From the NCBI RefSeq assembly GCF_021249345.1, contig NZ_CP089588.1, forward strand, positions 2,852,001-2,916,000: a DNA stretch of 64,000 nucleotides, written 5' to 3'. Each line of letters opens with the position of its first letter. The stretch's first letter is position 1. A program made the translations under genes and the position numbers. Source of the stretch: Halobacterium wangiae. GTDB lineage: Archaea; Halobacteriota; Halobacteria; Halobacteriales; Halobacteriaceae. Below the pieces are notes generated by a model. That model worked only from the letters and a program-made list of their open reading frames with translations, had not been told where the DNA came from and searched no databases. Below are positions 7,010-10,433 of the stretch, piece by piece.

Positions 7010-8158
7010 TCAGTCGGTGGCCGCCGGGACGGCGCGCTGTTCGGCCAGCGCGTCCAGGCAGTGGACCCAGTCGAGGAGGTACTCGCCGCACTCGTTCAGG
7101 AAGGCGCCGTTGTTGTACTCGTCGTAGTCGCCCTCGGCGAGACGTCCGCCGACGGCGCGCGCGACGGCCGCGTACGACTCCGCGTCGGGTTCCGCGGCGG
7201 CGACCTCCTTCCAGAAGTGCTCGTTCAGTTCGAGGCCCGCCACCTCGTTCGCCAGGTCGTCGAACGTCGAGCGCGGCGCCTTGTTGTGCTCGCAGAGGGG
7301 CGCACCGTTGTAGACGTCGCCGCCCACCACGTCGGCGGCGCGCTTCAACAGGACGCCGCTCCAGATGTCGTCGAAGCGACCGACGTCCCACGCGTTGTCG
7401 TCCATCGGGAACTGGTAGAACGCCGGAATCACCTCGCGGCGGAACGCGAGGTTCATCGAGCAGACCGTGAGGTAGTTCCCCTCGCGCGCGACGAAGTCGC
7501 GCTCGAAGTCCTCGAAGTCCGTGCGCGTCTGGGCCTGGCCCCGCAGGTCGCCGTCCATCAGGATGCGGACCGCGTCGAGGTCCGGTACGTTCGTCCAGAG
7601 GCCCTGGGACGCGACGACGTGGTCGACGTCCGTCGTCCCCGTATCGACGTCCTCGTCCATCGCCGCGTACGGGTAGCCACGGGGGTAGAGGTCGGTGTCG
7701 GACTGGTAGAGGACGTTCACCCACTGCTCGTCGGAGGAGACGGCCTCGACTTCGCCCTGGTAGTGGAGGTTCTCGAGGTGCGTGCCGAAGAAGTCCCACT
7801 CGTCGTGGGGGAGCGTGTCGTCGTCGACGAACACGCCGTACTCGAAGTCGTTGGCCCACATGTACAGCAGGCCGAACGAGGTCTGTGCGTGGCTGGCGGC
7901 GGGGACGAGGTGGCTGTACTCGGCGACGCCGTGCTCGTCGAACCACGCTTCGCGGTCCGATTCGTCGAAGACGGCACCGGCGATGCCCTCGTCGTCGAGC
8001 AGCTCGCGCATCCCCGCGGTGTCACAGAAGTCCTCGGTGACCAGCACGACGAACAGACGGTCGAGGTCGAAGCCGTGGTCGCGTGCGTTCTGGAAGTACG
8101 ACCGCATGCACTCGTACTCTCGTATCGTGGGGACGACGACGCAGACGTCTCGGCTCAT
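7010..8158 (-). CDS. RGP / alpha-1,4-glucan-protein synthase-like protein (UDP-sugar binding)
   Basis: A 382-residue protein starting MSRDVCVVVPTIREY. It looks like the reversibly glycosylated polypeptide family (plant UDP-arabinopyranose mutases), which haloarchaeal genomes often name alpha-1,4-glucan-protein synthase. The GT-A-like motif VFVDDDTLPHDEWDFF near residue 130 supplies the DxD-type nucleotide-sugar site. I see no membrane segment. It may isomerise or self-glycosylate with a UDP-sugar that feeds surface glycans. The gene follows a perfect DtxR-like palindrome and lies next to the iron ABC operon, but a TATA element and operator precede that operon's first gene, so it is a separate unit. 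Confidence 0.75.
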   Translation of the reverse strand: MSRDVCVVVPTIREYECMRSYFQNARDHGFDLDRLFVVLVTEDFCDTAGMRELLDDEGIAGAVFDESDREAWFDEHGVAEYSHLVPAASHAQTSFGLLYMWANDFEYGVFVDDDTLPHDEWDFFGTHLENLHYQGEVEAVSSDEQWVNVLYQSDTDLYPRGYPYAAMDEDVDTGTTDVDHVVASQGLWTNVPDLDAVRILMDGDLRGQAQTRTDFEDFERDFVAREGNYLTVCSMNLAFRREVIPAFYQFPMDDNAWDVGRFDDIWSGVLLKRAADVVGGDVYNGAPLCEHNKAPRSTFDDLANEVAGLELNEHFWKEVAAAEPDAESYAAVARAVGGRLAEGDYDEYNNGAFLNECGEYLLDWVHCLDALAEQRAVPAATD

Positions 8159-8208: not shown

Positions 8209-8919
8209 TCACGAGATGCTCGCCACGGACTGCTGGAGCCTGATCGTCGGCGGCACCAGCAGTCCCCCCAGGAGCACGAGGAAGACGTAGGACATGCTGT
8301 CCGCGACCGCAGCGGGCGCGACGAGCGCCACCAGCCCCGCCACCGCGACGCCCGTCGCGCAGACGAGCACGATGAGGAGGTGGCGGCGGAGCGTGTCCAT
8401 CGTCGTGCCGTGGGCCAGCGCCTCCAGTCGTTCGCTGAACGCCACGCCGTACGTCGCGAACGCGAGCGCGCCGACCCCCTTGATGAGGGCCGTGGCGGTC
8501 GTGTCGCCGAGGACGACGACCACGACCCACTCGACGGCGATGACCAGCACGAACGCGAACTCGATGGTCCGCAACTGTTCGAGGGAGAGGTCCCGTTCCT
8601 CGGGTGGCGGCGCGAGCGCGCTGTTGTAGTACACTTCCCGCATCGCGAACGCGACGAACGCGATGCCGAACAGCAGGGACAGGTCGCCGAACGCGCGGAC
8701 GACGTTCCCGCCGCCCGCGACCAGCGCCAGGCCGCAGACCGCGAACGCCGACAGCGCGATGCCGAGGTACGCGAGGTAGCTCCAGAAGTCCTCGTGGCCC
8801 TCCATGCGGTCGAGCGCGAAGTTCTGGAGCGCGTAGTACGTGAACGCCACGCCGGAGACGAGGACGATGCCGTAGCCGGTGAACTCGACCGCCGAGAGGA
8901 CGTTCGTGGCGGCCGCCAT
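8209..8919 (-). CDS. Seven-helix membrane protein, unknown function
   Basis: A 236-residue protein with seven hydrophobic segments by eye: near residues 8-30, 45-70, 76-98, 118-138, 146-164, 176-204 and 210-230. Short charged loops separate them, with one longer acidic loop (APPPEERDLSLEQL). I do not recognise a named family and see no retinal-binding lysine motif. The start ATG overlaps the stop of the upstream HEAT/pseudokinase gene as ATGA, so the two are translated together. This suggests a membrane sensor or anchor working with a cytoplasmic kinase-like partner. Confidence 0.75.
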   Translation of the reverse strand: MAAATNVLSAVEFTGYGIVLVSGVAFTYYALQNFALDRMEGHEDFWSYLAYLGIALSAFAVCGLALVAGGGNVVRAFGDLSLLFGIAFVAFAMREVYYNSALAPPPEERDLSLEQLRTIEFAFVLVIAVEWVVVVVLGDTTATALIKGVGALAFATYGVAFSERLEALAHGTTMDTLRRHLLIVLVCATGVAVAGLVALVAPAAVADSMSYVFLVLLGGLLVPPTIRLQQSVASIS

Positions 8920-10433
8920 CAGGCCACCCCCTCCCCGGCGAGCGTCACCGCCAGTTCGTCGAGCGAGCGCTGGTAGTCCAGCACCGTGTCGTAGCGCGCG
9001 GTCTTCTCGGCCGCCAGCGACAGCGCGAACAGGTCCTCGACCCCCTCGGGGAGCGCGGGGTTCCACTCCCTCGCCGGCACGAGGTCGTCGGTCGCGTTCG
9101 GCGGTTCGCCCGTGAACAGGTAGTAGGTCATCGCGCCGACGCCGAACACGTCCGTCGACTGGTCGAAGCGCCCGTACGTCTCTGGTTCGTGGTGTTCGGG
9201 CGCCGCGAACCCGGACGGGACCGGCGGGACCTGCACGCCGCTGGCGGCGTGCGCGAACCCCCAGTCGCCGACCACTGGTGCGTCCCACGTCCTCCTGCCG
9301 GTGGCCACGAACCGCACGGCGGCCGGGTGGAGGCCACCGTGAACTACCCCGCGAGCGTGCGCGTAGCTGATCGCCTTCGTGATGCTCATCGCGTCGTAGA
9401 CGGCCTCGGCGAGCGTCTTCGGGGCGCCCCGGCGCTCGAACGTCTCGCCGTCGTCGTAGCGGGTCGCCAGCCAGCGGTCGCCCTGGCCGAGTATCGACAC
9501 GACGTGGTCGTGCTCGTCGACGGCCGCCCACCGCTCGACGGCCTCGTGGAACGCCTTCAGCACGGCCGACTCGTCGCGGTGGAACCGGCGGTACGTGACG
9601 AGGCCGTGTTCCAGTTTCTCCTCGTCGACGTCCGCGCGGAAGTCCGTCGTCAGTACTCCCTGTCGGAGTTTCAGGTTCGGCGCGAGGTCGTCGTCCTCGA
9701 GGACGACGTTCGGCGGGTCCGGCACCTCGTCGGGTGGCCCCATCTTCGGGCGCTCGTCGCCGTCGTCCTCGGCGACCGCCGGCGCGTCCTGTCCGAAGGA
9801 GACGTGGACCGGGCGGGAGCGGTCGTCGTCCGCGTTCACCGTGACCACGGAGACTCCCTCCGGGAAGAGGTCGGCGAACTCGGGGTGGGCGCGGACCAGC
9901 ATCGGGTAACCGGCGTCCTCGGCGCGGTCCGCGATAGCTGCCGTCACCTCGCGGACCGCCTGCTTCGCGTACCGCCGGAGCAGCGGATCCTCCGAGCGCG
10001 TCAGCGGCGCGATGCTCGAGAGACCGGCGCTCGCGCGAGCGGGGTAGGACTTCGTCACGCCCGCGACGGCCACCACGCCGTTCTGCCGGACCAGCGGGTC
10101 CGCCGCCCGCGTGAGGTCGACGAGCGCTTCGAACTTCACGGAGAGAGCGTCCGGCTGTCGTTCTGCGAGTTCCGCGAGCACCCAGGTCGCACCGCGTTGC
10201 ACCCAGACGTCGTCGTCGTCGACGCAGTCGAGGACGCTGTCGAGGTGTGCCCGGACCGCCGTCGGCTCCGAGGAGGCGGCCTCCACGAGTCGCCACGCCG
10301 CCCCAGCGCGTTCGTCGGGGTCCTCGCTCCCGAGTTCGTCGACGAGCGCGTCCACCGAGTCCGCCTCGACCTGCTGCTGGAGCGCTGCGATGTGTTCGCT
10401 GTCCACGTCGCGGTCGCCTGTGTCGGGTTCCAT
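8919..10433 (-). CDS. HEAT-repeat protein with degenerate Ser/Thr kinase-like domain
   Basis: The N-terminal ~170 residues form HEAT-like helical repeats (WRLVEAASSEPTAVRAHL; WVLAELAERQPDALSVKFEA). The C-terminal ~250 resemble a Ser/Thr kinase fold: an HGGLHP loop where HRDxKxxN is expected, GDWG for DFG, an APE-like motif (GFAAPEH) and STDVFGVGAMTYYLFTG matching subdomain IX. The catalytic Asp and Asn are replaced (Gly, Ala) and no clear VAIK lysine is visible, so it looks like a pseudokinase or an unusual kinase. ATG 10433 (504 aa) is preferred over a GTG at 10469. It is coupled by ATGA to the seven-helix protein downstream. Confidence 0.75.
   Translation of the reverse strand: MEPDTGDRDVDSEHIAALQQQVEADSVDALVDELGSEDPDERAGAAWRLVEAASSEPTAVRAHLDSVLDCVDDDDVWVQRGATWVLAELAERQPDALSVKFEALVDLTRAADPLVRQNGVVAVAGVTKSYPARASAGLSSIAPLTRSEDPLLRRYAKQAVREVTAAIADRAEDAGYPMLVRAHPEFADLFPEGVSVVTVNADDDRSRPVHVSFGQDAPAVAEDDGDERPKMGPPDEVPDPPNVVLEDDDLAPNLKLRQGVLTTDFRADVDEEKLEHGLVTYRRFHRDESAVLKAFHEAVERWAAVDEHDHVVSILGQGDRWLATRYDDGETFERRGAPKTLAEAVYDAMSITKAISYAHARGVVHGGLHPAAVRFVATGRRTWDAPVVGDWGFAHAASGVQVPPVPSGFAAPEHHEPETYGRFDQSTDVFGVGAMTYYLFTGEPPNATDDLVPAREWNPALPEGVEDLFALSLAAEKTARYDTVLDYQRSLDELAVTLAGEGVA

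Follow-up and report, generated by a model that had tools for sequence, protein, structure and literature searches.

Whether a protein with a kinase fold but without the residues of a working kinase can serve a membrane partner is the question raised by a pair of genes in Halobacterium wangiae, which lie within a stretch of 64,000 nucleotides of contig NZ_CP089588.1 (the window). Pseudokinases are known chiefly from eukaryotes and, among bacteria, from a few families. In the window, a gene encoding a HEAT-repeat protein with a kinase fold is followed by a gene encoding a seven-helix membrane (7TM) protein (Table 1). An earlier, sequence-only reading of the locus had described their junction as a stop/start overlap of the form ATGA. 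The two genes do overlap, but they do so as TGATG, sharing the single base 8919; a junction of the four-base ATGA kind is found in some sister species (e.g. loci L008, L009 and L016).

Table 1 Features of the gene pair in the window
Feature	Positions	Strand	Basis
HEAT-repeat pseudokinase gene (P0001)	8919..10433	(-)	ORF, ATG start, 504 aa
HEAT-repeat solenoid, residues 25-177	9903..10361	(-)	PF13646 in 24/26 homologues; model pLDDT about 80-93
Kinase-fold domain, about residues 246-497	8943..9698	(-)	PF00069; family profile vs PknB structures E=6.6e-30
VTYR at VAIK position, Lys to Arg, residues 279-282	9588..9599	(-)	Alignment with PknB VAVK
HGGLHP catalytic-loop remnant, Asp to Gly, residues 365-370	9324..9341	(-)	Asp absent in 55/55 linked homologues
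DWG at DFG position, residues 390-392	9258..9266	(-)	Asp 25/55, Asn 22/55 linked homologues
APE motif, residues 411-413	9195..9203	(-)	Pro and Glu in 55/55 linked homologues
Stop/start overlap TGATG of both genes	8917..8921	(-)	Sequence; junctions compared
Seven-helix membrane protein gene (P0002)	8209..8919	(-)	ORF, ATG start, 236 aa
REVY motif, cytosolic end of helix 3, residues 94-97	8629..8640	(-)	Conserved in 63 kinase-linked homologues
GT..DTLRRH motif, cytosolic loop 5-6, residues 171-180	8380..8409	(-)	Conserved in 63 homologues
IRLQQ motif, cytosolic end of helix 7, residues 226-230	8230..8244	(-)	Conserved in 63 homologues

The product of the upstream gene had been read as N-terminal HEAT repeats fused to a Ser/Thr kinase fold, and profile searches and modelling bear this out. 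In Pfam, the window protein matched PF00069 (E=1.2e-7, 31.8 bits, with a cut-off of 31.7) and, slightly below the cut-off, PF13646 (HEAT_2; E=4.7e-6). When homologues of the protein were searched, PF00069 was found in 26 of 26 and PF13646 in all but two of them (best E 1.3e-14), while a profile of the family matched the structures of PknB. Structure models were generated as single chains, with the window sequences and two sequences from related loci as input. For the kinase-like protein this yielded a confident helical solenoid spanning residues 27-174 and a poor kinase domain (pLDDT 57), with confidence limited to the HEAT part. Consistent with this, the HEAT-like part alone was matched among the 50 Foldseek hits listed for the model, the matches in the PDB being designed armadillo/HEAT-like repeat proteins. 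The catalytic motifs are as the sequence-only reading had them: the HGGLHP loop of the window protein has no Asp, DWG (with its Asp at the Mg-binding position) and APE are retained, and the VAIK Lys is missing. The catalytic Asn is absent from the loop as well. Since the VAVK of PknB pairs with VTLR or VTYR of the family in the profile alignment, the position of this Lys is taken by Arg.

We then aligned these residues across 55 kinase-like proteins encoded next to a 7TM gene (linked proteins), together with 27 unlinked paralogues. None of the linked proteins has an intact HRD/VAIK pair. The HRD Asp is missing from every one (Gly in 39, Ala in 11, Ser in 3, Cys in 1 and Thr in 1), the VAIK Lys is lost in 52, with Lys present in 3, and the catalytic Asn is gone in 43; the glycine loop is degenerate. 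At the DFG position we found Asp in 25, Asn in 22 and other residues in 8, so that the Asp retained by the window protein is lost in 30 of its relatives. By contrast, the HRD His, the Pro and Glu of APE and the alpha-F Asp are present in 55/55, and the DFG Gly is nearly invariant. As the HRD Asp is absent throughout, its loss is an ancient trait of the family rather than a local loss or a sequencing error, and the retention of fold residues alongside the loss of catalytic ones implies that the fold has been selected while catalysis was lost. A recent review defines a pseudokinase by the loss of at least one of the beta3 Lys, HRD Asp and DFG Asp (PMC12599244), and on sequence grounds the linked family is one. 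Because 25 linked proteins hold the DFG Asp and three the VAIK Lys, they may nevertheless bind nucleotide or catalyse an atypical reaction.

Among the 27 unlinked paralogues, which were picked by similarity to the window protein, 19 retain the HRD Asp. In an unrooted kinase tree these mostly intact paralogues cluster together with modest support (87/58), four unlinked pseudokinases nest inside a linked group, and the 7TM-linked label requires three changes. A single origin of the 7TM-linked kinases is therefore plausible on the sequences, and if the tree were rooted on the intact side (a root that is assumed), it would fit a scheme in which catalysis was lost once and the 7TM gene was lost in some cases afterwards. 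Several other kinase-fold groups were encountered in haloarchaea. Large intact paralogues (L161, L166, L168, L170) have open frames of about 950-1460 aa and the motif HLDLKPEN, and HEAT repeats are present in at least L161. HEAT-pseudokinases that lack both the Asp and a 7TM partner occur near thermosome-like genes in several genera (L174, L175, L179, L182), and a separate, longer Asp-less kinase-fold family (about 735 aa) is found in Haladaptataceae (L198, L199, L202, L181, L176).

Turning to the membrane protein, seven helices were predicted, as the sequence-only reading had held; the confidence of the model is low (pLDDT 53), and the charges of the loops agree with it. Across 63 kinase-linked homologues, on which all figures for topology and conservation are based, Lys and Arg number about 1.9-3.6 per segment in loops 1, 3 and 5 and the C-terminus, and 0.05-0.6 in the N-terminus and loops 2, 4 and 6. 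Since positively charged residues concentrate on the inside, the protein is predicted to have its N-terminus out and its C-terminus in. With the cytosolic side set by this predicted topology, conservation is 2.11 bits in cytosolic segments versus 1.19 bits in outer ones, and when the topology labels were shifted circularly, 1 of 235 shifts gave as large a difference. In the outward and mid-membrane parts of these homologues we saw no conservation resembling a ligand site, and no conserved mid-membrane charge save at positions near helix ends and at the family-specific E130. Searches of Pfam, NCBIfam and the PDB returned no relative of the protein (best E=0.1 for sequence matches in the PDB, none useful), and no transporter family was matched in Pfam or in PDB profile searches. 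Two known kinds of seven-helix haloarchaeal sensor were considered and rejected. HisKA_7TM (PF16927) gave an hhalign probability of 0.3% against three members from the same genome; microbial rhodopsins gave no Pfam match, and a Lys in helix 7 occurs in 2 of the 63 homologues, near its outer end. A distant second group of 7TM proteins (L138, L140, L142-L150) has no kinase neighbour; in the members read, the C-terminal tail is conserved and resembles RQQGGEVERLYD..TWR.

Is the pairing itself conserved? When 293 genomes from the order were searched with a profile, the 7TM protein was found in 84 genomes from 23 genera; neither it nor the pair was found outside the haloarchaea in a sample of 295 genomes of the phylum. 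In 36 distant loci, the gene immediately upstream of the 7TM gene, on the same strand, is the kinase-like one, and in most of these the 7TM start codon is no further than 11 bases from the kinase stop (81 bases after it in the widest case). The pair is present in 11/11 full Halobacterium loci; no other genus of the Halobacteriaceae was found to have the 7TM protein in the 293-genome sample. In Haladaptataceae, where the pairs are mostly on megaplasmids, gene order is held in 19 of 21 loci; some of the loci of this family have a small opposite-strand gene between the two members and, in Halorussus halophilus, a gene for an FkbM methyltransferase as well. The members are apart in genome G017 (by about 93 kb) and in G147 (by about 3.5 kb, on opposite strands), and in G182 they are on different contigs. 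The linkage that the sequence-only reading had anticipated is thus conserved in several families, and its absence is ruled out by the 36 distant, 11 Halobacterium and 19 Haladaptataceae loci. Given the standalone 7TM proteins and the 7TM-less pseudokinases described above, each member can also exist alone. A search for phage copies gave only weak matches to the kinase domain.

Beyond the pair, we found no third gene that is conserved next to it across families. In the window, the 7TM gene is followed at a distance of about 50 bp by a gene for an RGP-like protein (reversibly glycosylated polypeptide; 7010-8158), and in all Halobacterium loci checked the pair is followed by this gene and an ABC transporter. 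Many loci of f4 (probably Haloarculaceae) have a gene for an MCP/HAMP transducer that is transcribed divergently from the pair, often with 110-240 bp between them (L116, L121, L127, L129-L133 and others). A gene for a HalX protein lies 1-8 kb downstream in most annotated Haladaptataceae records (L067, L069, L070, L071, L072). The transducer and HalX genes, each limited to its family, hint at sensory roles. They also qualify the earlier proposal that the pair is not built on histidine kinases: the pair is indeed unrelated to HisKA_7TM, but in particular lineages MCP transducers and HalX regulators are encoded nearby.

Both genes appear to be maintained. Within Halobacterium, pairwise dN/dS is 0.14-0.38 over the full length of the kinase-like gene, and the 7TM gene gives 0.05-0.24; with values of about 0.1-0.4, neither is decaying. 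Distances between kinase-like proteins and between 7TM proteins are correlated over 52 loci (Mantel r 0.93, reached in 0 of 999 permutations), a figure that is confounded by shared species history. The two genes also tend to be lost together: both are broken in G189 and G193, while G171 and G031 have a 73-residue remnant of the 7TM protein and no linked-type kinase. Haladaptataceae loci of this kind, with both genes broken or the 73-residue remnant alone, are L154, L155, L151 and L152.

Taken together, we think it rather likely that the two genes form one unit, in which a non-catalytic HEAT-pseudokinase docks on the 7TM protein from the cytosol and serves as scaffold or adaptor. The pair has been kept together over the long term in Halobacterium and many other haloarchaea, and it probably works as a membrane-bound, non-enzymatic unit of signalling or regulation. 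Of the earlier proposal, the pseudokinase status and the conserved pairing are thereby borne out, whereas a sensor/effector role of the pair is a possibility. The 7TM protein would cross the membrane, N-terminus outwards, and present its conserved surface to the cytosol, where the soluble HEAT-pseudokinase, having a kinase fold but no canonical phosphorylation, would dock. There, the kinase fold and the HEAT solenoid would recruit or hold partner proteins, as a scaffold or an allosteric adaptor, and the pseudokinase would either relay the state of the membrane protein or react to it. The observations that support a unit are adjacency, gene order and tight junctions, catalytic loss with retention of the fold, purifying selection, correlated divergence, joint decay and loss, and a conserved predicted cytosolic face; from these we infer the physical complex, the scaffold role, the signal, the direction of signalling and the output. 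The docking and scaffold parts of the proposal lean also on the membrane scaffolds MviN and EssB/YukC, as analogies. Against a unit stand the poor single-chain models of the kinase domain and the 7TM protein, the genomes G017, G147 and G182 that keep the genes apart, the occurrence of each member alone, and the remnant Asp and Lys residues that leave room for atypical catalysis.

Other readings share much of this evidence. The 7TM protein could be a transporter, a channel or a membrane enzyme, with the HEAT-pseudokinase as its cytosolic regulator rather than the readout of a sensor. We regard this as somewhat unlikely: the lack of ligand-site-like conservation on the outer face, the RGP-like and ABC transporter genes behind the pair in Halobacterium and the precedent of an MviN pseudokinase regulating peptidoglycan synthesis all speak for it, but the middle of the membrane has almost no conserved charge, no transporter family is matched, and the neighbouring genes vary by lineage. 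It is improbable that the pair serves classical chemosensory or two-component pathways as an accessory that differs by lineage, with its output going to MCP transducers or HalX regulators. The divergent transducer genes of many f4 loci and the downstream HalX genes of Haladaptataceae would suit such a role, yet these neighbours are not common to the families, and gene order within a family may reflect inheritance only.

The two remaining alternatives concern the kinase-like protein itself. Kinase-fold proteins may have activities besides phosphorylation (PMC10870513). AMPylation and glutamylation are known for other members of the fold, and a non-canonical reaction of this sort through a rearranged site would make sense of the invariant HRD His, the nearly invariant DFG Gly and the 25 proteins with Asp at the DFG position. 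It is nevertheless very improbable here, given the Asn in 22 of 55 at that same position, the widespread loss of the Lys and the catalytic Asn, and the degenerate glycine loop. Finally, we give practically no credence to a locally decaying gene or an error in the sequence, under which the pairing would have no function. Broken copies do occur in some genomes (G189 and G193), but the identical loss in 55/55 proteins over many genera, purifying selection and conserved junctions refute it.

How does the pair compare with known systems? In MviN (MurJ) of Mycobacterium, family ActPs3 (PMC12599244), a catalytically lost kinase fold likewise goes with a multi-helix membrane partner and acts as a membrane scaffold, a role that involves a phosphorylated tail and an FHA partner. 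However, MviN is actinobacterial and a single protein fused to a lipid II flippase, whereas the haloarchaeal pair is archaeal and comprises two genes, with an N-terminal HEAT solenoid and a seven-helix protein without known family; its separate genes, seven helices and lack of a flippase Pfam match exclude membership. EssB/YukC of type VII secretion, which the same review also describes as a bacterial membrane scaffold, resembles the pair in having a dead kinase fold that recruits partners at the membrane, but is single-pass and has neither HEAT repeats nor a separate 7TM gene. The linked proteins share their fold with PknB-type (Hanks) Ser/Thr kinases and are related to the intact, unlinked haloarchaeal HEAT kinases, which have HLDLKPEN and VAIK, whereas the HRD Asp is never present in the linked proteins. 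The module is best called a membrane-partnered pseudokinase, an already known type, with a new 7TM family.

The review of pseudokinases covers bacterial families and uses the word ‘archaea’ once (PMC12599244). In a 2005 survey, one of five STYK homologues of H. salinarum was listed without the catalytic Asp (Table 1 of Krupa and Srinivasan, PMC1262709); this is perhaps a pseudokinase of the window type, and a partner, HEAT repeats or a family for it were not found in the accessible part of that paper. The sequence-only reading knew of no described function for the pair, and our literature search, which lay outside most subscription journals, likewise found neither a publication on it nor a described archaeal pseudokinase family.

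The pair represents an archaeal pseudokinase family with a fixed membrane partner, long kept despite its lost catalytic residues. Rather less probable than docking itself, and put forward tentatively, is the fuller idea of a widespread haloarchaeal module for signalling at the membrane without phosphotransfer of its own, in which a novel 7TM receptor-like family works with a dedicated cytosolic HEAT-pseudokinase. If true, it would provide a prokaryotic parallel to 7TM receptors that act via scaffold proteins. As the pair occurs in Halobacterium salinarum, deletion, tagging and co-purification are possible, and the role of a dead kinase can be asked directly, with its membrane partner already in hand.
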